Assembly (NCBI GenBank): GCA_021324675.1
Contig: JAJPIR010000261.1
Coordinates: 1 to 42,436, forward strand
Length of the DNA: 42,436 nucleotides
Origin: Actinomycetota bacterium
Lineage (GTDB): Bacteria > Actinomycetota > Actinomycetes > Mycobacteriales > Pseudonocardiaceae
Reading direction: 5' to 3'
Shown here: positions 22-12,975 of the stretch, piece after piece
How positions within the stretch are numbered: the first letter of the stretch is position 1
Layout of the letters: each line of letters opens with the position of its first letter
The notes under the pieces: model-generated
Told to the model about the DNA's origin: nothing
Seen by the model: only the letters and a program-made list of their open reading frames with translations
Database searches by the model: none
Made by a program: the position numbers and the translations under genes

Positions 22-507
22 CTAGGGTCTAAACCAGTCAGCGGTTTGGCGGTGACAGCCAAGTCCAGCGACGACGAATTCATCGCGGTGTCCGGACGCG
101 ACCACACCGAGATACCGTAGGGCCTCACAGATCGGGCTGTTGCTGCCAGCCGGAAAGGGCTCGTTGCGACTGAGGATCCGGGGACCGTAGATGGTCATAC
201 CGTATTGCCAGACCACTGCGGTCTGACGCCCTTCACGACCGAAGTAGTCGGCTTCCAGGTATGCGATCCGCCCGCGGGTCGACGCAGTCACCAGTAGCGC
301 CTGCACACCGATCGACAGCTGCCAAAAGCCGGTTTCGAGCGAGACGCGACCGGCATGTGGATCCAGTTCGAGCACCAGGTCCTCGATGACCGGAATCAGC
401 GCGAGATTCCCGGCGGCGAGGGAGACGAGATGAGCACTCCGGTGGTGCGCGCAGATCGGCCCTAGCACCTGCGGAGTCGAGATCATCGCACTCAGCTCGT
501 AGCGCAT
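22..507 (-). CDS. Hypothetical protein, last gene of the tubulin-like cluster
   Basis: The 161-residue product is one I do not recognise. It has no signal peptide or membrane segment. Its middle is hydrophobic and strand-rich (around residues 28-75) and its C-terminal third contains scattered Cys and His, including a GLGCHRQ stretch. It starts 20 bases after the stop of the preceding small gene on the same strand, so it is very probably the distal gene of the tubulin-like transcript. The start at MRYELS is the first one after that stop. Only position supports a shared role with the tubulin-like proteins; no function can be read from the sequence. Confidence 0.6.
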   Translation of the reverse strand: MRYELSAMISTPQVLGPICAHHRSAHLVSLAAGNLALIPVIEDLVLELDPHAGRVSLETGFWQLSIGVQALLVTASTRGRIAYLEADYFGREGRQTAVVWQYGMTIYGPRILSRNEPFPAGSNSPICEALRYLGVVASGHRDEFVVAGLGCHRQTADWFRP

Positions 508-527: not shown

Positions 528-827
528 CTACTCGAGAAAGCCTAGGTGCTTGAGCACATGCGCCGCTGATGTTGCTCGCACATCGGCTACCTCGACGCGG
601 TACTCCTCGGCGAACAGACCAGCGTGGCGGGTGATCCGACCTTGCTCGATCAACTCCGCGGCCTTCTCCAAGTGTTCCCGAGACAGCGCGTCGGTCCACA
701 GCCGATGCCGGATGTAGATCTTGTCGTTGTCCACCGACATGATCTCTAGCATCTTGCCGCCAGCCACTGTGGGGATCAACGCGCCTGCCCCGTACCTACG
801 CTGTACTTCCGACCAGTCCAACGGCAT
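528..827 (-). CDS. Small partner protein A of the tubulin-like cluster
   Basis: This 99-residue soluble protein is a clear paralogue of the one encoded at 3078-3377. Both start M-x-L-D-W and share (Y/R)(V/I)(K/R)HRLW, a central helix rich in LEKA and LLEQG-like residues, and an identical last five residues (LGFLE). I do not recognise the family. Its start lies 5 bases after the stop of the sigma-like gene, consistent with one transcript. Two tubulin-like paralogues and two small paralogues in one cluster suggest matched pairs, for example a cofactor or assembly protein for each tubulin-like chain. That pairing is inferred from gene order and paralogy only. Confidence 0.7.
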   Translation of the reverse strand: MPLDWSEVQRRYGAGALIPTVAGGKMLEIMSVDNDKIYIRHRLWTDALSREHLEKAAELIEQGRITRHAGLFAEEYRVEVADVRATSAAHVLKHLGFLE

Positions 828-832
828 GTCGC

Positions 833-1276
833 CTACTCCTCATCCTCGGGGAGGCCATCTGACGGCAGGGCGCACGCCGCCAGGCCGCGCATGTACTCCA
901 TGGTGCGGTGCCGGCGAAGGCTCGCTATCTGCGTATCGCAGCCCAGCGTCGAGGCCAGCTGCCCATCGTCGTCGCCCCGGACGCACGTGAGCACGAACAC
1001 CTCCTGGTGCTCGAGCGGGAGCCCAGTCAACGCCTGGAGCAAGTGCGGCCAGCTGGCCACCTGGGCCAGGCGACCCTCTCGAGCCTCGGCGAGACGGGCT
1101 TCGGCCAGCCGGGCGATGCGCCCGGAATAGGGCAGCCCGAAGTACCGGAAGACCTTGGGTTTAGCCAGCAGACCCGCCAGCACCTGCGTGCCGACTTGTT
1201 CTGCGAGCTGGCGGTTACCCAGGCGGTGCTGGCAGGTGTAGGTGATCGCGTCATAAGTGGCGCAGACCCGTGTCAT
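833..1276 (-). CDS. Sigma-factor region-4-like helix-turn-helix protein
   Basis: The 147-residue product has a C-terminal segment (about residues 88-137) resembling sigma-70 region 4: a LPLEHQEVFVL helix, a short acidic turn, a GQLASTLGC helix, then a recognition-like helix with RRHRTMEYMR. No region 2 is present, so it is not a complete sigma factor. The N-terminal half is Leu/Ala/Arg-rich and probably helical. It sits between tubulin-like gene A and small gene A. The same frame stays open upstream of the ATG across the 95-base gap and into the end of the preceding gene, so the true start may lie further upstream. It could be a DNA-binding regulator of this locus or a protein that only shares the fold. 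Confidence 0.55.
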   Translation of the reverse strand: MTRVCATYDAITYTCQHRLGNRQLAEQVGTQVLAGLLAKPKVFRYFGLPYSGRIARLAEARLAEAREGRLAQVASWPHLLQALTGLPLEHQEVFVLTCVRGDDDGQLASTLGCDTQIASLRRHRTMEYMRGLAACALPSDGLPEDEE

Positions 1277-1371
1277 CCAGGCCTGGTATTCCGGCAGCAG
1301 GGAGGCCGGCGGGCAATCGGTTTGGCCGCCGGCCCCATCCTCTGGGCGACCCGGTTGGTGAAACGGCCCGG

Positions 1372-3027
1372 TCAGGGTGTCGTCACCACTGTCTTGACCA
1401 TGGGAGCAATATGGGCTCCCTGCACTGCGGTGATGTCCTCCGACGCCGGTGCGTCACCCCGGATTGCCGCATGCGGTACGACGACCCAGCAGGCGCAACC
1501 CCAGATGCATTCCCCGGCCATGCCCTCGAAACGGATCGACGGCTCGCTCATCATCACACCGAGATCGAGAATCCACGAATGCATAAGCAGTTTATCATCC
1601 CACGACTCAATCTGGTCGTAGGCATCCCTAGCTTCGTAGAACGCGGTGAAATCGGTCTTGGCGACACCTGGGATGATGATATTGGCGTAGGCGGTGAGCT
1701 CGTCAAAGAATTCGCCATGCTCGGTGTAAAGCGTGCCGTCCTCCCCGGGCAGCAGATAGGTTCGCAGCGTTTCGTTCAGCTTGTTCTGCAGAGTGTCGTT
1801 CCACAATTCGCGGGGAGCTACTGAATGAACTTCGATGTAGTCAGTCTTGAACCCCTCCTTGAGGCCGGACCACTTCGGTATGTAGCCGATCCACTTGCTG
1901 ACGACCTCCCGCCATTTACTCCGCGGCTCGCCGGGAAGTACCTCCACGCCGGGGTGGGTGAATTTGGCGACATCCAGCACGGTCCATGCGCGGTCGCCGG
2001 AAGTGTTCCGCTCGTGTGGGGCCCCGGTGAAGCCCGCCGGCCGTAGCAGCTTGAACAGCAGCCGGCCGTAGTCCTGCACGACGAATCGGCAGAAGGAGTC
2101 ATCGATGAATTTCCGCGTGACGCCCTTGCGCAACGCGTCCCGGATCGCCGGTTGACCGGTCTTGGTGTAGGAGCCGAGCCGCTGCCAGGAATGTTCCTGG
2201 GGCAGCGCGAAGAATCCGCCAGTGAACGGGTTCTTGTACAGGTCACCCCAGACGGCCATGACACCCTGGTTCTTCTGCTCATCGAGCATGCAGTCCAGCT
2301 CGTTGATCGTCGGGTACAGCGCAGCTTTGCCGCCAGCGTGCTCCTCGTCGCCGGAGAAGGGCATGGTCGCGATACCGACGACAGGGATTCGCCGGCCCAA
2401 CTTCACATTGGACAGGTGTCGAGCGAGGTCGACCACCATGCCGCTACCAGTACCACCGGCCATCGAGAAGAAAACGAGCACGATCGACGGAAGCTTCGTG
2501 TCGTTGATGCTTTGCACGAACGCATCGAGCTCTTTTTCTAAAGACCTCGGCTCAGAGTAGTAGTAGTGCCCATAAATGGCCTTGGAGATGGCCCGTGGGA
2601 ACGTGTCACCGGCCTTGGGTAGTTCGAGATCAGCGGGCAGCCACGGCTCGTAGTTGGGGTTCCAGTAGTAGCGTGGGTATTCCATCTTGAGGAACTCCCG
2701 CCACCGGTTGAGGCTGGTCTGGAGTTCGTCACGATCCGGGACCTCAAGGCCGACCGTGCGGATCTGGGCACGTTCGCGAGGAATCCCTCGCTCGTCGAGC
2801 CTCGCATTGAAGCCGCTGGCGTATTCGCGCAGCTCATGCATGTCCTGGTCGCCGATGTCGATCGCTAGGCCGGTGAAACGCGCCCGCGGGTCTTCGAGCA
2901 GATCCTCAATCTCACCGGTGCGCAGGAGGGCCTCGACCATATAGGCGCCGGTCTTACCGACGCCGATCGCATGAATGCAGTGGGGCGACTGGTTTCCCGT
3001 CGCGCTGTGGTACATAGACAGTCCCAT
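1372..3027 (-). CDS. Tubulin/FtsZ-like protein A
   Basis: The 551-residue soluble protein has tubulin-superfamily hallmarks: a glycine-rich loop near residues 21-28 (IGVGKTG), an AIDIGD strand end near 55-60, and a T4-like loop near 189-196 (MAGGTGSG) followed by a helix and a VVGIATMPF strand. The C-terminal part differs from FtsZ and ends in a Trp/Cys-rich motif (CIWGCACW, about 507-514). I see no FtsZ-type NxDxxD T7 loop, so hydrolysis is uncertain. It is a close paralogue of the protein at 3458-5008, sharing the blocks YYWNPNYEPWLP, GDLYKNPFTGGFFA and WDDKLL-HSW. The chosen ATG follows an AGGAGAGG site; a GTG overlapping the previous stop at 3081 is the alternative. Members of the Tubulin_2-type families are mostly uncharacterised. 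Confidence 0.75.
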   Translation of the reverse strand: MGLSMYHSATGNQSPHCIHAIGVGKTGAYMVEALLRTGEIEDLLEDPRARFTGLAIDIGDQDMHELREYASGFNARLDERGIPRERAQIRTVGLEVPDRDELQTSLNRWREFLKMEYPRYYWNPNYEPWLPADLELPKAGDTFPRAISKAIYGHYYYSEPRSLEKELDAFVQSINDTKLPSIVLVFFSMAGGTGSGMVVDLARHLSNVKLGRRIPVVGIATMPFSGDEEHAGGKAALYPTINELDCMLDEQKNQGVMAVWGDLYKNPFTGGFFALPQEHSWQRLGSYTKTGQPAIRDALRKGVTRKFIDDSFCRFVVQDYGRLLFKLLRPAGFTGAPHERNTSGDRAWTVLDVAKFTHPGVEVLPGEPRSKWREVVSKWIGYIPKWSGLKEGFKTDYIEVHSVAPRELWNDTLQNKLNETLRTYLLPGEDGTLYTEHGEFFDELTAYANIIIPGVAKTDFTAFYEARDAYDQIESWDDKLLMHSWILDLGVMMSEPSIRFEGMAGECIWGCACWVVVPHAAIRGDAPASEDITAVQGAHIAPMVKTVVTTP

Positions 3028-3077
3028 GACTCTGGGTTCCTCTCCTCTTGAAACTGCGCGTACTTTCGCCTGCCACC

Positions 3078-3377
3078 TCACTCGAGGAAGCCAAGGTCTT
3101 TCAATACGGTGGCCGCGGTTGTCGGTCGTTCGTCGGCGACGAAGGTGCGGTACTGGTCGACGAAATCGCCGGAGCGCCGGGTCATCTTTCCCTGCTCAAG
3201 CAGCGCCACCGCCTTTTCTAAATTGGTCCGCGAAAGGCTGTCCTTCCACAGCCGGTGCTTGACGTAGACCTTCGTTTCATCGGCACCGGTTACCGCGAGC
3301 GTGGAGGCTCCGGGGATCGGCGCGACCTCGGCGCCGTCCTTGTACCGCGCGACAACTGCGTCCCAATCCAGCGCCAT
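3078..3377 (-). CDS. Small partner protein B of the tubulin-like cluster
   Basis: The 99-residue product is the paralogue of the protein at 528-827, with the same MxLDW start, VKHRLW block, LEKAVALLEQGK-type helix and LGFLE end. It lies between the two tubulin-like genes, about 80 bases after gene B and some 50 bases before gene A. An AGGAGAAC ribosome binding site precedes the ATG. The family is unknown to me. There is no signal peptide, cysteine or membrane segment, which favours a cytosolic accessory protein. Confidence 0.75.
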   Translation of the reverse strand: MALDWDAVVARYKDGAEVAPIPGASTLAVTGADETKVYVKHRLWKDSLSRTNLEKAVALLEQGKMTRRSGDFVDQYRTFVADERPTTAATVLKDLGFLE

Positions 3378-3457
3378 CGCAGTTCTCCTTTCTCGATCTG
3401 CAGTCAGCTGGCGGCGATCTGATTGCCGGCTCAGCTCGCGGCGATCTGATTGCCGGC

Positions 3458-5008
3458 TCAGCCGGCGACCGTCACCGGTGACTCGACAGGCGCTGGTGCC
3501 TCCTCACCGCGGATGGCGGCATAGGGCACGACCACCCAGCAGGCGCAGCCCCAGATGCACTCGCCACCCATGCCGTCGAAGCGGATCGAAGGCTCGCACA
3601 GCATCACCCCCAGATCCAGCAACCACGAATGCTTGAGCAGCTTGTCGTCCCAGCTCAACGTGTCGTAGGTGTCCCGAGCGGCGAAGAACATCTCCAGATC
3701 GAGCTTGCTGGCGCGCGGGACAACCACCGTGACCACCGGCTTGCCTGGACTGTCCACCTGCAACACTGTGGGTTCCACAGTGGTGCCTGCAATCTGCCCG
3801 ATCTGCTCACGTAACCTCGTGCCAGCCTGGGCGTCGAATGCGTCACCCGACCCCAAGGTGCGCGCTTCGATGTATTCGGTACTGAAGCCCTTCACCAGAC
3901 CGCAACTGCCCAGTGTGCCGATATCGGCCGCCTCACGGGTCGCCAGTACGTTGATCCAGCGGGCGTTCGGCTCGCCACGGATCGCCGGGTGCCAGGCATC
4001 CGCCGGCACCGACAGCCAGTTCAGCGCCTTGAGCGTTTCGTACAGGTGGACCGAGTCGTCGCGGGCCAGGAAGGCCGCGATTCCAGAATCCACATACGCA
4101 TGCGTATCGGCGAGGTTGCCTTTCATCGCGAACGCATCGTCCTGCGGCACGGCGAAGAATCCGCCAGTGAACGGGTTTTTGTACAGGTCACCCCAAACCG
4201 CCATGACACCCTTGTTCTTCTCGGTGTCGATCATGCAGTCCAACTCATTGATCACCGGGAAGAGCGACCCGTCGAAGACTTCCGGGGGGTCACCCGCGCA
4301 GGGCAGCACGCCAACGCCGATCACCCACGGTCGGCGCCCGAGCTTGATGGTCGACAGGTGCCGGGCGATCTCGACGACGATGCCGCTGCCAACCCCGCCT
4401 GCCAGACTGAAGACCACTACGACCAGTGGGGTGGCTTGGCTGGTCAACACACTGTCGGCGAACGCATCCAGCGCCCTGGTGATCTCGCGGTTCTGGTAAT
4501 ACTCCGAGCCATACACCGCTTTGGCGAGTGCCCGGGGGAAGTGTTCACCCGGGCCGGGCAGCTCCACGTCTGCGGGTAGCCACGGCTCGTAATTGGGGTT
4601 CCAGTAATACCGGGGGAACTCCATTTTTAAGAATTCGCGGTAACGGTTGAGACTGGTCCGCAGCTCATCGCCGGTGGGGATGGGCAATGCAACAGTCTGG
4701 ACGTAGCTGCGTTCGGCTGGCAGACCTTCCGCCGCTGCACGGACTTGACTCAAGTCCTCGTCACCGATGTCCACTGCCAATGCTGAAAAGCGGGTAGTGG
4801 GGTCGACGAGAAAACCCTCGGGACGTTCGCGCAGCAACGTCGTGATGACTGCCGCCCCGGTGCCACCCAGGCCGAGAACGTGCAGCGAGAACGGGCCCTC
4901 GTGCTCACCTGCGCGATGGACGCCCTCGGTGCGCAACGCCTCTATGCGGGCCTGATCGTCGTGGTCATGATCATGGCCATGTTCATGTTCATGCTTGTCA
5001 GTAGCCAT
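3458..5008 (-). CDS. Tubulin/FtsZ-like protein B with His-rich N-terminus
   Basis: The 516-residue paralogue of protein A carries a glycine loop at about residues 45-51 (LGLGGTG) and a T4-like loop at about 201-209 in which the usual Thr is Val (LAGGVGSG). It shares A's blocks YYWNPNYEPWLP and GVMAVWGDLYKNPFTGGFFA and the C-terminal CIWGCACW motif (about 484-491). It begins with a His/Asp/Glu run (residues 6-18, HEHEHGHDHDHDD) that A lacks, a likely metal-binding tail. It is the promoter-proximal gene of the tubulin-like group, about 330 bases downstream of amiE. The Val substitution suggests altered or absent nucleotide hydrolysis, as in a subunit of a heteromer; that is inference. Confidence 0.75.
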   Translation of the reverse strand: MATDKHEHEHGHDHDHDDQARIEALRTEGVHRAGEHEGPFSLHVLGLGGTGAAVITTLLRERPEGFLVDPTTRFSALAVDIGDEDLSQVRAAAEGLPAERSYVQTVALPIPTGDELRTSLNRYREFLKMEFPRYYWNPNYEPWLPADVELPGPGEHFPRALAKAVYGSEYYQNREITRALDAFADSVLTSQATPLVVVVFSLAGGVGSGIVVEIARHLSTIKLGRRPWVIGVGVLPCAGDPPEVFDGSLFPVINELDCMIDTEKNKGVMAVWGDLYKNPFTGGFFAVPQDDAFAMKGNLADTHAYVDSGIAAFLARDDSVHLYETLKALNWLSVPADAWHPAIRGEPNARWINVLATREAADIGTLGSCGLVKGFSTEYIEARTLGSGDAFDAQAGTRLREQIGQIAGTTVEPTVLQVDSPGKPVVTVVVPRASKLDLEMFFAARDTYDTLSWDDKLLKHSWLLDLGVMLCEPSIRFDGMGGECIWGCACWVVVPYAAIRGEEAPAPVESPVTVAG

Positions 5009-5337: not shown

Positions 5338-6453
5338 TCAGGTGCGAGCCGGTGACGGTTGGTCGGCCTGCCGATCGGACGGCTCGTCGGGGAGGCGACC
5401 GCCGTCAACGTCGCCGGTTGCACCGTTCGATTTTTGATTCGGCAGACCCGGTATGGGACTTTCCGCGGTGCCGATCGTTGGGCGGGTGAAAGATTCCACT
5501 TGCCGCTGGGCGGCTGCCGGGTCGGTGACCCAGGTGCGGTAGAAGTCGAAGGGGCACTCCGCCACACCTTTATCCCCGTCTCCGGAGGCCAGCACACCGG
5601 TGTAACCGCGGTGCAGCAGCTTGAACATTTGGTTTTGTGACTGCCAGTTGGCGCGCGCGTCGCGGATCAACGAAACCGACAGCTCGGCGTACTGAATCCC
5701 GTACTCTTCTTCGCCGGTTTCGCCCAGCGTGCGGCCGTCGAACCCGATGATCGACGAATGGCCGAAGTAGGAGTAGACGCCATCGAACCCGGCTGCATTG
5801 GCAACCGCGACGTAGCAGTTGTTCATCCAGGCCATCGCCTTGGCGACGATGATCTGCTGATCCTTGGCCGGGTACATATAGCCCTGGCAACGCACGATAA
5901 GTTCGGCGCCTTTCATCGCGCAGTCTCGCCAAATTTCCGGGTAATTTCCGTCGTCACAAATAATGAGGCTGACCTTGAGCCCCTTAGGTCCATCCACCAC
6001 GTAGGTCTTGTCCCCGGGATACCACCCCTCGATTGGGACCCAGGGCAGGATCTTGCGGTAGCGCTGCACGATCTCGCCCTCGGCGTTCATCAAGATCAGG
6101 GTGTTATATGGGTTTTTGTGCGGGTGCTCCTCGTGCTGCTCGCCGGTCAGCGAAAAGACACCCCAGGTCTTGGCCGCGCGACACGCCTCGGCGAAGATCT
6201 TCGTCTCCTCACCCGGGATGACCGATGCGGTGGCAAACATCTCCTCGCGGTCGTACATGATCCCGTGCGTGCTGTACTCCGGGAAGACGATCAAGTCCAT
6301 TCCCGGCAGGCCCTGCTTGATCCCGACCACCATGTCGGCGATCTTCATGCAGTTGTCCCTGACGTCCTCGCGGGTATGCAGGCGGGGCATCTTGTAGTTG
6401 ACGACCGCGACGCCCACCGCATCGTTGCTGCTGCTGATGTCTCCGTGCCGCAT
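5338..6453 (-). CDS. amiE: Aliphatic amidase (nitrilase superfamily)
   Basis: Aliphatic amidase, EC 3.5.1.4, hydrolyses short amides to the carboxylic acid and ammonia in the cytosol. The 371-residue protein matches the AmiE family almost throughout, starting [11 protein letters not shown]. The catalytic triad is intact: Glu59 (VFPEYSTHG), Lys134 (YRKILPWVP) and Cys166 ([10 protein letters not shown]). It is about 25 residues longer than the usual 345-348 because of a Pro/Asp-rich tail. The chosen ATG follows GGGAGGAG, and an upstream in-frame start would lack a site. It lies downstream of an AmiC-like sensor, as expected for amide-induced expression. If formamide is a substrate, the product formate would feed the formate genes at 25-34 kb; that link is inference. 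Confidence 0.95.
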
Positions 6454-6572: not shown

Positions 6573-7640
6573 TTAGAGGGTGGAGACGATGTCGAAATCC
6601 ATGCCGGCCGCACGCGCCAGGTAGATGCGTTGCTCGACGTGCGCATCCCGCAAGCCCAGCTCGCCGCGCGGGCCGCCGTAGTGCGCGGCCTGTGCCACGG
6701 CGCAGATCTGACGCACGTCGCATGAACCCGCTCGCCGGACGAGCTCCGCGAGCAGTAACAGTCCCTCGTAGCAGGACTCTCCCAGGCTGTTGAGCATCGG
6801 AGCGTCCACACCGAAGCGCCGGCAATAACGGGCGTTGAAGTCCAGACTCTCCGCAGTGGGCAGGCACTCGAAGTATCCTGCCGCCACGAACAGCCCTGCC
6901 GTGTTGTCGGCACCCGTGGCCAGCAGCATGTTCTCGTCCATCAGCGGGCTTAGGCGCGTGCACCGCCGGTCTAGCTCAGCGTGCGCGAACTGGCGGTTGA
7001 AATGCACCGCGTCTTGGCCCACGAGGAACATCAGCACGCCCTCGCATTCGCTGCGTTCGATCCGCCTGATCGACGCGCGGAAATCGTGCGTGCCCAGCTT
7101 CACGAAGATCTCGTCGCGGATTTCGGCGCCACAGATGCGGGCGAATCCGCGGCTCACGGCAGCCGAGCGGCGCGGCCAGATGTAGTCGTTGCCGACGATG
7201 CACCACCGCCGCACACCCATCTCGTGCGCCATCCAGCGTAGCGACGGCAGGATCTGGTGCCGCGGTGTCTCACCGGTCAGGAACACGCCGGGACTGCGCT
7301 CGCCACCTTCATACAACGCGGTGTACACGTATGGCACCCGTTGGGCGATGCGGGGTGCCAGCACCTCCCGCACCGCGGAGATGTGCCACCCGACCACCGC
7401 GTGCACCCGCCCAGCCGAGATCAACCGATCGACCTCGTCGGCGACCCGGACTGGCGGCGCTCCGCCGTCCACGGTCAGCAGGCGAAGTTCGCGGCCGAGT
7501 ACGCCGCCAGCTGCGTTGACTTCCTCCATCGCCAGCTGGGCGCACAGCTCGCAGGATGGTCCGAAAATGCCGGCCGGGCCCTGGATCGGGACCACCAAGC
7601 CAACTATGAACATTCCTCGATGCCCTTGATGCCTTGGCAT
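6573..7640 (-). CDS. AmiC-like amide-sensing periplasmic-binding-fold protein (cytosolic)
   Basis: The roughly 355-residue protein has the type I periplasmic-binding fold of the AmiC/UrtA family: an N-terminal VGLVVPIQGPAGIFG strand-loop, AMEEVNAAGGVLGRELRL, a central GNDYIWPRRS hinge region and a C-terminal YGGPRGELGLRD. There is no signal peptide, which fits a cytosolic ligand sensor rather than a transport protein. In Pseudomonas AmiC senses amides for amiE; in Rhodococcus rhodochrous J1 an AmiC-like protein acts with a MarR-type protein in amide-induced nitrile hydratase expression. Both partners occur here, with amiE downstream and a MarR gene divergent. The start is uncertain: ATG 7640 follows a GGGGGG stretch, ATG 7613 is the alternative. 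Confidence 0.8.
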   Translation of the reverse strand: MPRHQGHRGMFIVGLVVPIQGPAGIFGPSCELCAQLAMEEVNAAGGVLGRELRLLTVDGGAPPVRVADEVDRLISAGRVHAVVGWHISAVREVLAPRIAQRVPYVYTALYEGGERSPGVFLTGETPRHQILPSLRWMAHEMGVRRWCIVGNDYIWPRRSAAVSRGFARICGAEIRDEIFVKLGTHDFRASIRRIERSECEGVLMFLVGQDAVHFNRQFAHAELDRRCTRLSPLMDENMLLATGADNTAGLFVAAGYFECLPTAESLDFNARYCRRFGVDAPMLNSLGESCYEGLLLLAELVRRAGSCDVRQICAVAQAAHYGGPRGELGLRDAHVEQRIYLARAAGMDFDIVSTL

Positions 7641-7760
7641 CGCCGCCCCCCGGGTCGGGATCGCGTATATCGCCAGATGCTCAAATGGCGGCCCGTCGTT
7701 CGACATCGTAGGCGGGCATCGGCTATTCAGACAGCCCCGCTGCTGACGTCGTGTTATTTT

Positions 7761-7772
7761 CTGGTTAATCAG
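7761..7772. promoter_or_regulatory. MarR-type operator-like dyad in the divergent control region
   Basis: CTGGTTAATCAG differs from a perfect palindrome at only one symmetric pair of positions. It lies between the divergent AmiC-like and MarR genes, about 30 bases before the likely MarR start. MarR-family operators often have this size and AT-rich centre, so autoregulation is likely but unproven. Confidence 0.4.
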
Positions 7773-7802
7773 TTCCGGATGACACTGCCTGGGGAGTCAC
7801 GG

Positions 7803-8228
7803 GTGACAGTAGGCTCCGAGCTGGGCTTGGCCCACCTGCTCAGCCAAGTGGAGAGTCGGGTGACTCGACGCTTGGTTACGGTACTGCGCGCCAACGACTG
7901 CGAACTTGCGGAGTGGCGAGTGCTGCGTCTTCTCGCGGACGGGCGAGGCAGGCCGATGAACGAGATCAAGGATTTCGTCCTGCTGCCGGGTCCGACTCTC
8001 ACCAAGCTGATCGACCGGATGGTTGCTGACAATCTGGTCCACCGGCGCGGTGACCTCGAGGATCGCCGCCGCGTGCTGGTGTTCCCGGCGCCGCGCGGCC
8101 TCGCGAAGTACGAGGCAATCCGCACCGCCGTGGACTCCGCCCAGATGGAGCTGGCTGAGCGGATTGGCGACAAGCAGGTGGGCGAGCTGACCCGCGTGCT
8201 GTCCGAAGTCGCCGAAGCCCTGCGCTAA
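7803..8228 (+). CDS. MarR-family transcriptional regulator
   Basis: The 141-residue protein has the MarR winged-helix core: LLADGRGRPMNEIKDFVLLPGPTL as helix-turn-helix, then LIDRMVADNLVHRRGDLEDRRRVLV with the DxRxR wing. It lies divergent to the AmiC-like gene, the arrangement of the AmiC-like/MarR-like pair that controls high-molecular-mass nitrile hydratase in Rhodococcus rhodochrous J1. I place the start at GTG 7803 because GGGGAG sits six bases upstream; ATG 7779 is possible but has no clear site. It likely controls the amiC-like-amiE genes, and perhaps the tubulin-like genes, in response to an amide or acid. Confidence 0.85.
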   Translation: MTVGSELGLAHLLSQVESRVTRRLVTVLRANDCELAEWRVLRLLADGRGRPMNEIKDFVLLPGPTLTKLIDRMVADNLVHRRGDLEDRRRVLVFPAPRGLAKYEAIRTAVDSAQMELAERIGDKQVGELTRVLSEVAEALR

Positions 8229-8499
8229 GCACTGGTGCTATCTGGGCAGGCCATGCTCACTGCCAGTCGCCGCACTGTGGCTTACTGCAGCGCTCGGCCG
8301 TTCTTGACTGACCGTTCGGCGCCAGCCGTCTAGACGTCGTTGCGCAGGGGTGTCACGATACCTGCTTGTCTGATCAGATTTTTCAAACGGAACAATGTCT
8401 GCCGGAAGGATTTTCTCGGAGCTCGGGGCGGTGGGAGGCCCAGCACGTGGGAAGGCCGACCGCAGTGCACATGCGCCGAGATGCACGAGGAGCCGGATC
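8229..8499. other. Leader upstream of the cobalt transporter operon
   Basis: The 271-base stretch has no convincing gene; reading frames upstream of cbiM lack homology. I looked for a cobalamin riboswitch and saw no recognisable B12 box. AT-rich sequence around 8370-8395 could hold the promoter. Control may instead come from the ArsR-type sensor encoded after cbiO. Confidence 0.4.
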
Positions 8500-9213
8500 A
8501 TGCACATCGCCGAGGGATATCTCCCACCGCTGCACGCTGCAGCCTGGACAGTGGCTGCCGCACCGTTCGTCGTCCACGGTTGCCGCGCACTGGTGCGGCA
8601 GGTTCGAACCGATCCGGAGTCGAAACTCTTGCTTGGGGCGGCAGGAGCATTCAGCTTCGTGCTGTCCGCACTCAAGCTGCCCTCAGTGACCGGCTCGTGT
8701 TCGCACCCCACCGGAACCGGACTCGGGGCGATATTGTTCAAACCCCCGATCATGAGTGTGCTCGGTTGTATCGTGCTGTTCTTCCAGGCGGTGATCCTGG
8801 CTCACGGCGGCCTGACCACGCTCGGCGCGAACACGTTCTCGATGGCGATCGTAGGTCCATGGGTCGGATACGGGATATATGCTCTGATACGCAAGCTCGG
8901 CGGCGGCCTCGGGGTCGCAGTATTCCTGGCCGCCGCGTTAGCTGACTTATCCACCTACTGCGTAACCAGCATTCAGCTTGCGTTAGCTTTCCCAGATGCC
9001 GATTCCGGGGTGTTCGGTGCGGCAGTCAAGTTCGGGTCCATCTTCGCAATTACGCAGGTCCCGCTGGCGATCAGCGAAGGTTTTCTCACCGTGCTGGTGA
9101 TCCGCCTGCTGATCAAGGCGAGCCCAGGCGAATTGAGTCGTCTCGGAGTGGTTCGCGACTCGGTCCGGCGCAGCGGGGCGTCCGCTGCGAGCGTAGGGGA
9201 GGTAGCGGCGTGA
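8500..9213 (+). CDS. cbiM: Cobalt ECF transporter S component CbiM
   Basis: CbiM is the substrate-binding membrane component of the cobalt energy-coupling-factor transporter. The 237-residue protein starts [10 protein letters not shown], matching the family's MHIMEGFLPP; Met1-His2 form part of the metal site, which fixes the start at 8500 rather than at upstream in-frame ATGs. About six hydrophobic helices follow, with the family blocks [41 protein letters not shown] and [11 protein letters not shown]. It overlaps cbiN by GTGA and begins the cbiMNQO operon. Ni2+ cannot be excluded from sequence, but the presence of CbiN and the amidase context favour Co2+. Confidence 0.95.
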
Positions 9214-9620
9214 GCAGGTTCAGTGCCATCAACATGCTGTTGTTTCTGGGCGTCATCACGCTGGTCGCGGTGCCGCTCATCTTCGTGTCGGGTGAATTCG
9301 CGGGCTCGGACGATCAGGGCCAGGCGCAGATCGAGAAGAGTCATCCCAACTACAAACCGTGGTTTCACTCGGTCTATGAACCGCCCTCCGGGGAGGTATC
9401 CAGCGGGCTTTTCGCCATACAGGCCGCCATCGGCGGCGGTGCCCTCGGCTACTACTTCGGCGTGGCCCGGACTCGTCGACGCATAACCGGCGGTGGACCT
9501 GACAGCGGCTGGTCGTCACCTGGTCTCCCGGCAGGTGACGGGTCGGGGAATCGCAAGCGGGCGGATGCCGGAGGGCGGGCTGCTGGGGGCAGCGGGTCCG
9601 GCGGGAGCCGGCATAACTGA
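9210..9620 (+). CDS. cbiN: Cobalt transport protein CbiN
   Basis: CbiN is the small auxiliary membrane protein that enables metal loading of CbiM. The 136-residue product has an N-terminal helix ([19 protein letters not shown]), an extracytoplasmic segment with [19 protein letters not shown], and a second helix ([19 protein letters not shown]), the classic two-helix layout. A Gly/Ser/Arg-rich tail of about 45 residues extends beyond the usual end. The GTG start overlaps the cbiM stop, and its TGA overlaps the ATG of cbiQ, so translation is coupled. Confidence 0.92.
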
Positions 9621-10366
9621 TGCTCCCCCTGGATACGATCGCCTATACGAATCGGTGGCGGCCTCGGCACCCCGGTGAAAAGGCACTGTTATCGCTCGGA
9701 TTGCTGGTTTGCGCGGTCGCTTTGCCAGTGTGGCCGGGGGCTCTGGTGGTTGGTGCAGTCGCCACAGTCATCCTGTTTGGGCCGGCTGGCCTTAGCGTGG
9801 GGCAGGCAGCGCATGCGCTGCGGGTTCCACTGGGTTTTGTCGTCGCCGGTTCGCTGCCGTTGTTATTCGCTGTCGGGGGGTCGACCGGCGTGCGAATTGA
9901 CCTCCACGGGCTCACCCTTGCGGCCCAACTCGCCGGTCGGTCTACCGCGGCATTGCTGTGCCTGCTGCTGTTCGCGGCCACCACCCCGCTGGCTGACGTA
10001 CTGCCCAGACTGGCGAATCTCGGTGTCCCCCCGGCCGTCACCGAAATTACCGCACTCATGTATCGGATGCTGTTCCTCCTGCTCGACACGGTGCGTGCTA
10101 TCCGCGAGGCCCAGGCCAGCCGACTCGGCTTCCGCAATTGGTCCACCAGTTACCGCTCGCTGGCCGGGCAAGGAGCGGCTGTTTTCGTGCGAGCCTTCGA
10201 CCGGGCCCGCCGGATGGACGAGGGCCTAGCGCTGCGCGGCTACACCGGGTCATTGCGGGTAGATGTCGAGTCCCGACCGGTTTCCCGATCGTTCGTCCTG
10301 CTTTCCGCGGCGGTGCTGGTAGCCGTGGTCACGGTCACCCTGACGATCCGGCTGGCACTGCAATGA
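9620..10366 (+). CDS. cbiQ: Cobalt ECF transporter T component CbiQ
   Basis: CbiQ is the transmembrane coupling protein between CbiM/N and the ATPase. The 248-residue protein has several hydrophobic helices and a cytosolic loop with the ARG-type coupling helices: REAQASRLGFRNW near residue 160 and DRARRMDEGLALRGYTG near residue 195. It starts at the ATG overlapping the cbiN stop and ends 10 bases before cbiO. Confidence 0.93.
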   Translation: MLPLDTIAYTNRWRPRHPGEKALLSLGLLVCAVALPVWPGALVVGAVATVILFGPAGLSVGQAAHALRVPLGFVVAGSLPLLFAVGGSTGVRIDLHGLTLAAQLAGRSTAALLCLLLFAATTPLADVLPRLANLGVPPAVTEITALMYRMLFLLLDTVRAIREAQASRLGFRNWSTSYRSLAGQGAAVFVRAFDRARRMDEGLALRGYTGSLRVDVESRPVSRSFVLLSAAVLVAVVTVTLTIRLALQ

Positions 10367-10376
10367 TCGAGTCACC

Positions 10377-11279
10377 ATGAGCGGTCACCATGATCCGGCG
10401 GCGGTGCCTGTCGTATCGGTACACGACCTGTATTTCGCCTACGAGCCAGGGCGTCCAGTGCTTGCCGGTGCCGAGCTCGCCCTCTATGCCCGGCATCGTC
10501 TCGCCGTGCTCGGCCCCAACGGGGGCGGAAAGACCACGCTATTCCGGCTGATCGTAGGTGCGCTGAAACCGGATGCTGGGGAAATCCGACTTGATGGCCG
10601 GCCGCTGCGCCATACTCGCAAGGGCCTGCTCGAGCTGCGTCAGCAGGTCCAGCTTGTGGTGCAAGATCCCGATGATCAGCTCTTCGCCGCGAGCGTGTAC
10701 CAGGACGTGTCCTTCGGTCCGGTTAACCTTGGCCTGCCCGCACCTGAGGTGCGAGCCCGGGTCGATGCCGCGCTCGGTGCGCTTGGCATTACCGAACTCG
10801 CCGACCGTCCTACCCATCTCTTGTCGTTCGGGCAGAAAAAACGCACCGCAATCGCGGGTGCGATCGCGATGTGCCCTCGAGTTCTGGTGCTTGACGAACC
10901 CACCGCCGGTCTCGATCCCGTTGGTGTCGAAGCTTTGCTGGCCACCCTGCACGATCTGCACGTCGCCGGGACCACGTTGGTGATTTCGACCCACGACGTG
11001 GACCTCGCCTACCGCTGGTCTGACGAGGTGGCCATCGTCGCTGACGGCACGATCCACCGTGCCCCCGTCGACGTCGCTCTCGCCGACCATGACCTGCTTA
11101 CCCGGGCACGGCTGGGGCCGGCCTGGGCGCCCACCGTACACACCCTGTTAGAGCGCAGAGGCGGGCTCTCAGGCGCGCGCCCACAGACGGCCGCTGAACT
11201 CTACGCCCTGCTTGACACGGCAACCCGGACCATCCAGCCATCCTCGCACCACACTGGTGGTGCGGGCGCAGGGGCTTGA
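10377..11279 (+). CDS. cbiO: Cobalt ECF transporter ATPase CbiO
   Basis: ATP-binding subunit of the cobalt importer, 300 residues. Visible motifs are Walker A GPNGGGKTTL (46-55), the Q-loop at VVQDPDDQLF (about 94-103), signature LSFGQKKR (149-156), Walker B VLVLDEPTAGLD (about 169-180) and the switch His in ISTHDVDLAYRWSD. The C-terminal 70 residues are a family-specific extension with no known motif. It is the last gene of cbiMNQO; the metal sensor follows 43 bases later. Confidence 0.95.
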   Translation: MSGHHDPAAVPVVSVHDLYFAYEPGRPVLAGAELALYARHRLAVLGPNGGGKTTLFRLIVGALKPDAGEIRLDGRPLRHTRKGLLELRQQVQLVVQDPDDQLFAASVYQDVSFGPVNLGLPAPEVRARVDAALGALGITELADRPTHLLSFGQKKRTAIAGAIAMCPRVLVLDEPTAGLDPVGVEALLATLHDLHVAGTTLVISTHDVDLAYRWSDEVAIVADGTIHRAPVDVALADHDLLTRARLGPAWAPTVHTLLERRGGLSGARPQTAAELYALLDTATRTIQPSSHHTGGAGAGA

Positions 11280-11896: not shown

Positions 11897-12700
11897 TTAG
11901 TCGCGTGTTGCTGTATGGCCGAGTAGCCAGGAGCACCACTCCGCGATGCCCTCACCGGTGCGTGCGCTGGCGCGGATGGTGGTCGCCTGGGGGTTGACGG
12001 CCCGGAGGTTGGCCAGGAACTTGTGCAAGTCGAAATCGAGATAGGGCAATAAGTCGACCTTGTTGATCACGACCACGTCCACGGCCCGGAACATCACCGG
12101 GTACTTCAGCGGCTTCTCCTCCCCCTCGGTCACGGCGTAGACCATGGCTTTGGCGTGTTCACCAACCCGGAACTCCGCCGGGCAGACCAGGTTGCCCACG
12201 TTCTCGATCAGCAGCAGGTCAAGCTCGGGCAGTGGCAACCGGGATAGGCCGGAACGGACCATCACCGCGTCCAGGTGGCACTCGCCACCGAAGCCAGCGC
12301 TGGTGTTGACCAGCGACACGGCGGCACCGTAACCATTGAGCTGTTCTGCGTCGATGCTGGTGGCGATATCGCCTTCTAGGATGCCGATCCGGGTCTGCGT
12401 TCTGAGGGCGGCCAGAGTCCGCTTGAGCAGCGCAGTTTTCCCCGCGCCCGGCGAGGACATGATGTTGACGACCCGGACACCGGCCTCTGCAAAAGCTTTT
12501 TGATTGGCATCGGCCACTCGGTCGTTCTCGGACAGGATGTCCTCCAGGACCTTCACCCGCGCCGTCCCCGTCTCCGGATAGCCGCTGTGGTTTCCGACGT
12601 CCCTTCCAGTCACATCGTCGTGAGCACGATCCTGGTCGTGAGCGTGATCCTGGTCGTGAGTGTGCATCGTCTCGTCAGCATGGCGGTGGAAGCGGCCCAT
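11897..12700 (-). CDS. hypB: Hydrogenase/urease nickel incorporation GTPase HypB
   Basis: HypB is a SIMIBI GTPase that delivers Ni2+ during [NiFe]-hydrogenase maturation. The 267-residue protein has a His/Asp-rich N-terminus (residues 5-29) for metal storage, P-loop PGAGKTAL (84-91), Cys141-His142 at the dimer-interface metal site, ENVGNLVCP (166-174) and NKVD (213-216). The ATG lies four bases after the hypA relic's stop, fixing the start. No hydrogenase or urease gene is in the window, and hypA beside it is broken, so this copy may be residual or serve another metalloenzyme. Confidence 0.93.
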   Translation of the reverse strand: MGRFHRHADETMHTHDQDHAHDQDRAHDDVTGRDVGNHSGYPETGTARVKVLEDILSENDRVADANQKAFAEAGVRVVNIMSSPGAGKTALLKRTLAALRTQTRIGILEGDIATSIDAEQLNGYGAAVSLVNTSAGFGGECHLDAVMVRSGLSRLPLPELDLLLIENVGNLVCPAEFRVGEHAKAMVYAVTEGEEKPLKYPVMFRAVDVVVINKVDLLPYLDFDLHKFLANLRAVNPQATTIRASARTGEGIAEWCSWLLGHTATRD

Positions 12701-12704
12701 TCGA

Positions 12705-12975
12705 TCAAACCTCCACAATCTCGAGTGAGACGACGAGGAACTCCTTACCGGTCAGCAGAGTCACTGTAGAACGCTCGCATGACCCGTACGCCAGAAGAGG
12801 GACATCAAGCGTACTGATCGCGTCGCAGCCCTGGCACGCTACCGTGGCCGGCACCTTCTCGATCTCTAGCCCCGGCAACCTTGCAATGCGGTGCCATCGG
12901 TTGCCATGGTCCAGCAGAACTCCAAGGCGTCGGGAACGACCTGGCGGAAGTGCCGGCCAGGATGGACACGTGCAG
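12705..12975 (-). pseudogene. hypA: hypA relic (nickel chaperone), frameshifted and N-terminally truncated
   Basis: Directly upstream of hypB the minus strand encodes clear HypA pieces in two frames. The first reads GRHFRQVVPDALEFCW followed by TMATDGTALQG. After a one-base shift near 12870-12880 comes LEIEKVPATVACQGCD and, further on, LLTGKEFLVVSLEIVEV with a stop just before hypB. The N-terminal third, including the Met-His nickel site, is not recognisable. A sequencing error could explain the shift but not the missing N-terminus. Confidence 0.8.

Follow-up and report, generated by a model that had tools for sequence, protein, structure and literature searches.

A probable acetonitrile hydratase-type locus with two predicted tubulin-fold subunits in a member of the Pseudonocardiaceae

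Acetonitrile hydratase (ANHase) of Rhodococcus jostii RHA1 is described, in the passages of PMC3680314 and PMC3511329 that deal with it, as a cobalt nitrile hydratase that acts on small aliphatic nitriles, with genes in the order alpha-AnhE-beta and with AnhE as a metallochaperone essential for its maturation. The same gene order appears in a passage of PMC7193024, where the R. jostii nitrile hydratase is said to contain cobalt, copper and zinc, and a passage of PMC6941271 gives small aliphatic nitriles as the compounds used by the RHA1 enzyme. RHA1 ANHase is listed among subunit-swapping enzymes in a passage of PMC7329996, the opposite of what the passages in PMC3680314 and PMC3511329 state. 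Here we describe a related locus in a stretch of 42,436 nucleotides (the window; contig JAJPIR010000261.1 of assembly GCA_021324675.1, Pseudonocardiaceae), which very probably encodes an ANHase-type cobalt nitrile hydratase with a two-site architecture, beside an amidase and amide-sensing regulators. We make this assignment because of homology and gene order shared with RHA1 plasmid pRHL2, the published ANHase gene order and the metabolic neighbours. The core of the locus comprises two large and two small proteins:

3458 to 5008, minus strand: A, AnhA-like predicted tubulin-fold subunit, 516 residues, His-rich N-terminus (RHA1 homology, AlphaFold 2 [AF2], Foldseek)
3078 to 3377, minus strand: E1, AnhE-like putative metallochaperone, 99 residues, between A and B (role from the RHA1 papers)
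1372 to 3027, minus strand: B, AnhB-like predicted tubulin-like subunit, 551 residues from ATG 3027 (RHA1 homology, Tubulin_2 and PF00091)
528 to 827, minus strand: E2, second AnhE paralogue, 99 residues

The reading frame of B is open to GTG 3081 (1372-3081, 569 residues); the start at ATG 3027 agrees better with the homologues.

A tblastn search of plasmid records with A returned 15 records, 12 from Rhodococcus, two from Shinella and one from Agrobacterium. Plasmid pRHL2 of R. jostii RHA1, which probably carries anhA and anhB, encodes in order a MarR regulator, a binding protein, an aliphatic amidase, A, a 99-residue protein, B, a small helix-turn-helix protein and a nickel-type transporter. 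The pRHL2 proteins are identical to A at 58.6% of positions (over 94% of the length of A), to B at 57%, to E1, which has the same position, at 68% (over 99 residues) and to the window amidase at 74%. Homology of both large subunits, the order alpha-AnhE-beta and an AnhE homologue are all present. No classical nitrile hydratase alpha subunit was detected on pRHL2 by a model that does find one in the genome of the window. An earlier note on this DNA had proposed an undescribed system with no described function; the match to the RHA1 AnhA-AnhE-AnhB order overturns that part of it. Its inventory held up on reading of the open reading frames (ORFs) and sequences, all the parts it described being found on the minus strand, with E1 and E2 as paralogues (52% identity).

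Two degenerate peptide patterns, searched for in a collection holding one genome per species, identified 61 loci; loci without these patterns would escape the scan. By record title they belong to Pseudonocardiaceae, other Actinomycetota, Rubrobacter, Paenibacillus, Alicyclobacillaceae and Thermincola, and to cyanobacteria and alpha-, beta-, gamma- and deltaproteobacteria. Three of 396 genomes in another sample, drawn from the phylum of the window, had the locus, the window's own among them. The closest relative found was in a metagenome-assembled genome of the Pseudonocardiales (locus L016; A 90%, B 94%). The order A-E-B was found in 53 of the 54 loci with both subunits longer than 450 residues, the exception being Thermincola (B-A-E-E), and an E protein was present in 59 of the 61 loci, the two misses (L037 and L076) containing just an A fragment. 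The large and small proteins do co-occur, and this recurrence, with the fold evidence given below, supports the earlier suggestion of a heteromeric enzyme with dedicated chaperones.

The T4 loop GG[TV]GSG of the FtsZ/tubulin superfamily is present in both large proteins, as the earlier note had observed:

4382 to 4399, minus strand: T4-type loop GGVGSG of A (sequence reading)
2440 to 2457, minus strand: T4-type loop GGTGSG of B (sequence reading)

Pfam Tubulin_2 matched A (E 1.2e-6) and B (E 4.1e-7), both passing the cut-off, whereas PF00091 passed for B (E 8.7e-8) and failed for A (E 0.11). Among 54 aligned A and B sequences, 47 matched Tubulin_2 and 42 matched PF00091 at E<=0.01. The AF2 model of A (pLDDT 92.4, pTM 0.92) retrieved 658 PDB chains with Foldseek at E<=1e-3. 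The 50 matches listed were all entries for CetZ, FtsZ, TubZ, tubulin or BtubAB, alone or in complexes. Their TM-scores were 0.42-0.63 (by target) and 0.33-0.48 (by query), and their root mean square deviations (rmsd) 5.7-11.9. The model thus supports a tubulin/FtsZ fold for A, shared but rearranged, because the TM-scores by query are low and the rmsd values high among these matches. For B, homology to A and the Pfam matches suggest a tubulin-like fold. A sequence search of the PDB found no relative of ANHase-type subunits. The tubulin-type kinship put forward earlier is upheld by Pfam, AF2 and Foldseek, all above chance, the structure search with A having returned tubulin-superfamily matches. 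Some of these proteins are already publicly annotated as tubulin-like, and the fold link itself is not hidden.

Relatives of tubulin are usually thought of as filament formers, and A and B could in principle build a tubulin-like cytoskeletal heteropolymer of the BtubAB or TubZ kind, with E1 and E2 as assembly factors. The fold and the T4 loops are compatible with such a polymer, as is the presence of two paralogues, the arrangement seen in BtubAB; Foldseek also matched a BtubAB structure, 2btq. We nevertheless consider it very improbable, since the operon appears orthologous to an ANHase-type operon, its neighbours are an amidase, an amide sensor and cobalt transport, and the subunits carry a conserved Cys motif instead. 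The T7 catalytic signature of the FtsZ/tubulin superfamily, NxDxx[DE], was found downstream of T4 in 3 of the 95 sequences searched (26 of 121 were missed by the T4 pattern) and in neither A nor B of the window. The polymer raised in the earlier note is conceivable, but no result points to it. Tubulins of phages or of plasmid partition were also considered and rejected, A having no relative in viral contigs and B no match in phage records.

A and B share the Cys/Trp motif GECIWGCACWVVVP. As claimed in the earlier note, this motif is identical in A and B; it lies near the C-termini and not at their very end, and the His-rich stretch, described there as a tail, is present in A but at the N-terminus. 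A second conserved segment lies in the N-terminal part of each subunit:

3536 to 3562, minus strand: E-C-I-W-G-C-A-C-W of A, with Cys484, Cys488 and Cys490 as proposed cobalt ligands (sequence reading)
1486 to 1512, minus strand: E-C-I-W-G-C-A-C-W of B, identical motif (sequence reading)
4586 to 4639, minus strand: REFLKMEFPRYYWNPNYE motif of A, residues 124-141, decaying along with the Cys motif
2647 to 2700, minus strand: REFLKMEYPRYYWNPNYE motif of B, residues 128-145 of the 569-residue ORF (class comparison)

Both window subunits carry C-x3-C-x-C. Across 61 readable pairs (57 from the scan, three from plasmids and that of the window), the motif was present in both subunits in 37, in A only in 10 (eight Actinomycetota and two Bacillota), in B only in 14 (alpha- and betaproteobacteria) and in neither subunit in 0. 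This count omits L013, L037, L047, L075 and L076, which are incomplete, and L014 and L015, which are copies of L030 and L027; the A rows of L021, L050, L056 and L057 were partial at the N-terminus. A and B split as old paralogues in a tree of 116 rows (quick search, midpoint root), from which L075_B, rows left short by trimming and three near-copies (L017_A, L017_B and L050_B) are excluded; Thermincola A, with a long branch, groups on the B side instead. The motif-less rows, identified from the group table and parts of the tree, form one A group (14 rows, tree value 99) and two B groups (8 rows and 2 rows, both with tree value 100). We read this distribution as about three changes on the tree, probably losses.

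Sequences with the motif (95, Cys-plus) were compared with sequences without it (26, Cys-minus, including the truncated L075_B), the classes being set by the motif so that the Cys columns are circular. Sequences shorter than 440 residues and the third tubulin-like protein (described below) of L052, L053 and L058 were left out. Arg124, Tyr135, Asn139, Trp453, Glu483, Ala489 and Val493 were conserved in >=95% of Cys-plus sequences and in <30% of both Cys-minus classes. Subunits that have lost the Cys motif also show decay of the second motif, REFLKxEYPRYYWNPNxE, several further positions of which decay in one class. The T1/T4 loop glycines, His217, Asn265, His340 and Trp351 are retained in Cys-plus and Cys-minus subunits. 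We read the Cys motif and the N-terminal segment as parts of one putative functional site, which would be dispensable in one subunit if the other retains it; the co-decay of two distant segments is a stronger argument for this than the lack of loss from both subunits. Each motif-bearing subunit would, we infer, hold a single composite cobalt site; as both window subunits retain both motifs, two active sites are expected per heterodimer of the window enzyme. That the metal would be cobalt is suggested by the RHA1 literature and by resemblance to the classical CSLCSC motif.

Within the ANHase assignment, C-x3-C-x-C might instead form a structural zinc or copper site, with catalysis elsewhere, for example in the nucleotide-type pocket. 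The three metals reported for the R. jostii enzyme would fit such a site, as would the T1/T4 loop glycines, His217, His340 and Trp351 kept in both classes. However, none of the readable pairs lacks the motif in both subunits, although in some of them one subunit has lost it, and a plain structural site would not predict that the N-terminal motif decays with it, so that we regard this variant as improbable.

The gene set reaches past positions 528-5008, to which the earlier note had confined it, and takes in at least the amidase (to 6453), the AmiC-like gene (to 7706) and the MarR gene. On the minus strand, from 7706 down to 22, lie genes for the AmiC/UrtA-like protein, the amidase, A, E1, B, a sigma-like protein, E2 and a 161-residue protein; the MarR gene and then the CbiMNQO importer lie on the plus strand beyond the AmiC-like gene:

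5338 to 6453, minus strand: aliphatic amidase, AmiE type (NCBIfam PRK13286 697.7 bits, cut-off 427)
6573 to 7706, minus strand: AmiC-like/UrtA-like ligand-binding protein, probable amide sensor (Peripla_BP_6 E 1.8e-78)
7257 to 8228, plus strand: ORF with a C-terminal MarR regulator (MarR_2 E 2.4e-9, residues 217-272), true start probably internal
8395 to 11279, plus strand: CbiMNQO-type cobalt/nickel importer, possible metal supply (CbiM, CbiN, CbiQ, ABC_tran)
11897 to 12718, minus strand: HypB-like GTPase, possible metal-insertion helper (TIGR00073 252.8 bits, cut-off 121.2)
833 to 1276, minus strand: sigma-like protein, 147 residues as called, relatives longer at the N-terminus; possible operon regulator
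22 to 507, minus strand: 161-residue protein, same direction; relatives at >=50 bits in 16 of 61 loci, by record title all Pseudonocardiales

Neighbour thresholds were picked after the scores had been seen. Across the 61 loci, relatives of the AmiC-like protein (>=75 bits) were found in 35, of the cobalt/nickel transporter (>=120 bits) in 28, of the sigma-like protein (>=60 bits) in 25 and of the MarR regulator (>=35 bits) in 21, and two E proteins (>=90 bits) in 17, all Pseudonocardiales by record title. Among the 29 loci with >=6 kb on both sides (wide loci), 15 had an AmiE-type amidase, 22 an AmiC-like protein and 24 either of them; MarR was present in 15, AmiR in 4, the cobalt/nickel transporter in 18, a CobW/HypB GTPase in 11, and CbbQ and VWA proteins in 5 each. 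Elsewhere in the 5.63-Mb genome of the window the amidase has a single match, which is weak (26% identity, E 2e-7). The HypB-like GTPase may serve hydrogenases instead, NiFe hydrogenase matches being present in the same genome.

Another variant of the ANHase assignment concerns the substrate, which might be cyanide, a longer aliphatic nitrile or another small C-N compound in place of acetonitrile. Window A and B differ by ~40% from their RHA1 counterparts and the second site is retained, and genes for formate dehydrogenase and formate-tetrahydrofolate ligase lie within the same window. These one-carbon genes, however, start ~10 kb past the amidase, behind other genes, and the amidase passes the aliphatic amidase model but fails that of formamidase (280.8 bits, cut-off 406). 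A substrate other than acetonitrile has, in our judgment, perhaps a modest chance and is on the whole unlikely.

The one-carbon block itself (15986-40345) encodes a SAM (S-adenosylmethionine)-dependent methyltransferase-like protein, two MetE-like proteins, SAM synthetase, a PfkB kinase, S-adenosylhomocysteine hydrolase and FolD, together with formate-dehydrogenase-like subunits, formate-tetrahydrofolate ligase, an FchA-like cyclohydrolase, a PucR-type regulator, MoeA and an FdhD-like protein. It may constitute a pathway of methyl-group oxidation via the SAM cycle.

Given the predicted fold and the two subunits of the RHA1 enzyme, we propose by analogy that two subunits of tubulin/FtsZ fold, A and B, assemble into a heteromer. 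At a cobalt centre held by C-x3-C-x-C and, as the co-loss suggests, completed by the N-terminal segment, this heteromer would hydrate a small aliphatic nitrile such as acetonitrile to the amide. AnhE, as published for RHA1, may help cobalt to enter in the window enzyme also. The adjoining amidase, to judge from its family, would hydrolyse the amide to the acid and ammonia, and the AmiC-like protein and the MarR regulator may sense the amide and control expression. For the loops of the nucleotide pocket, a part in structure or assembly is more probable than one in driving a GTPase polymer cycle. More broadly, we lean towards the view that evolution has made a cobalt enzyme of the tubulin/FtsZ fold. 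This would be a pseudo-symmetric heterodimer with one or two Cys-cobalt sites, the site of either subunit having been lost independently in separate lineages, and with a nucleotide pocket retained for assembly or metal loading.

Several points weigh against this assignment. Cobalt content, nitrile hydration and an A-B complex are predicted for the window locus from homology, and the pRHL2 locus is equated with the purified RHA1 enzyme from gene order and context, not from an accession. The Cys motif may bind copper or zinc, both reported in addition to cobalt for the R. jostii enzyme, and its persistence in at least one subunit, resting on about three changes, is suggestive and not strong statistics. 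The rmsd values of the Foldseek matches listed are high. The E alignment (n=55) has no invariant Cys or His, so that the metal ligands of AnhE, if conserved, are not obvious. An AmiE-type amidase was found in just 15 of the wide loci. Lastly, the genome also encodes a classical nitrile hydratase and hydrogenases, and neither nitrile use nor metal genes are unique to the locus.

The invariant columns of the same E alignment are Trp5, Gly23, Trp44, Arg50 and Tyr76. The AnhE model is of moderate quality (pLDDT 85.6, pTM 0.73), and a fold search with it returned no PDB match at E<=1e-3. AnhE-like proteins also adjoin, in two genomes, a protein of 463-473 residues with DGLNS near its start (L054, 17345-19151; L065, 707-2450), which is possibly another enzyme with an AnhE-type chaperone. 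Sigma70_r4_2 was detected (E<=0.05) in 8 of 23 aligned sigma-like proteins and not in the window member; the family retains a region-4-like end and a conserved RPxVFRYFGLPYSGRIAxLAE stretch, and the simplest guess is that it acts as an operon-specific regulator. The 161-residue protein had no Pfam or NCBIfam match at E<=1.

The classical nitrile hydratase of the same genome lies on another contig (C53; L077, 3088-4781), its alpha subunit being identified by Pfam, with the motif CSLCSC, and its beta subunit and a small activator-like protein being judged by eye from adjoining ORFs. Two unrelated types of nitrile hydratase coexist in this genome. A classical nitrile hydratase was rejected as an identity for the subunits of the window, A and B having no nitrile hydratase Pfam match and A no BLASTP similarity to the classical alpha subunit.

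Some proteobacterial anh loci encode a third tubulin-like protein, which is shorter and lacks the Cys motif:

L012, 16610-17758: third tubulin-like protein
L013, 11968-13116: third tubulin-like protein
L052, 16204-17460: third tubulin-like protein
L053, 16221-17483: third tubulin-like protein
L058, 16184-17539: third tubulin-like protein

In L012 and L013 it comes directly after CbbQ and VWA genes, and a MoxR/VWA pair might aid metal loading. On Shinella plasmid pfSHIWSC3 (L013, 8696-9031), a 111-residue C-terminal remnant of B with the Cys motif precedes CbbQ/VWA, apparently as part of a decayed anh locus. A membrane-remodelling system of the VWA/OmpA type was rejected for the window, no such Pfam match being found among the 29 window ORFs scanned, the remaining window ORFs being outside the scan.

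Taken as a whole, the interpretation in the earlier note is partly supported. Neither of the two results that it named as refutation, a non-tubulin fold and large proteins that never occur with the small ones, was obtained. The ANHase family is known; its tubulin fold, the two-site state and the reciprocal losses seem not to have been described in open-licence full texts, a coverage outside which the original RHA1 papers and most subscription journals fall. Within it we identified no paper linking nitrile hydratase with tubulin, four hits that share these words lying outside the reading. The comparison ties a branch of Tubulin_2 to a probable cobalt nitrile hydratase and so gives such annotations a testable biochemical meaning. 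It also names likely active-site residues for an enzyme class without a PDB relative by sequence search and supplies a natural series (site in both subunits, A only, B only) for testing whether the two sites are independent. If the assignment is true, candidate nitrile hydratases extend to cyanobacteria, proteobacteria and Bacillota, and the family would add a third structural solution for attacking nitriles to those of nitrilases and classical nitrile hydratases, as well as giving a tubulin relative a task outside the cytoskeleton.

Among described systems, BtubA/BtubB, TubZ, CetZ and FtsZ resemble A and B in overall fold and T4 glycine loop; the window proteins differ from them in high rmsd, absence of the T7 pattern, an extra C-terminal Cys motif and a metabolic operon. 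The FtsZ-like/Tubulin_2 families share with A and B the Tubulin_2 match, and a VWA protein recurs beside some of the proteobacterial relatives. Makarova and Koonin (2010) assigned a bacterial and archaeal FtsZ-like group to membrane remodelling from genome context, in a part of PMC2875224 that makes no mention of nitrile, amidase or Rhodococcus, whereas the context in the window is nitrile and amide use. A 2023 survey of FtsZ and tubulin treats Tubulin_2 proteins as divergent FtsZ-like outliers in a section that does not mention nitrile (PMC9871819). Classical cobalt or iron nitrile hydratases (PF02979) are alike in the expected reaction, a Cys-rich metal motif, an amidase partner and a small activator protein; unlike them, A and B have a tubulin-like predicted fold and C-x3-C-x-C instead of the C-x2-C-x-C of the CSLCSC type, and neither an NHase_alpha domain nor C-x2-C-S-C was found in A or B. 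RHA1 ANHase keeps the Cys motif in A only, whereas the window has it in both A and B and adds a second AnhE, the sigma-like protein and the 161-residue protein; the two share the order A-E-B, 57-68% identity per protein and an adjoining amidase.

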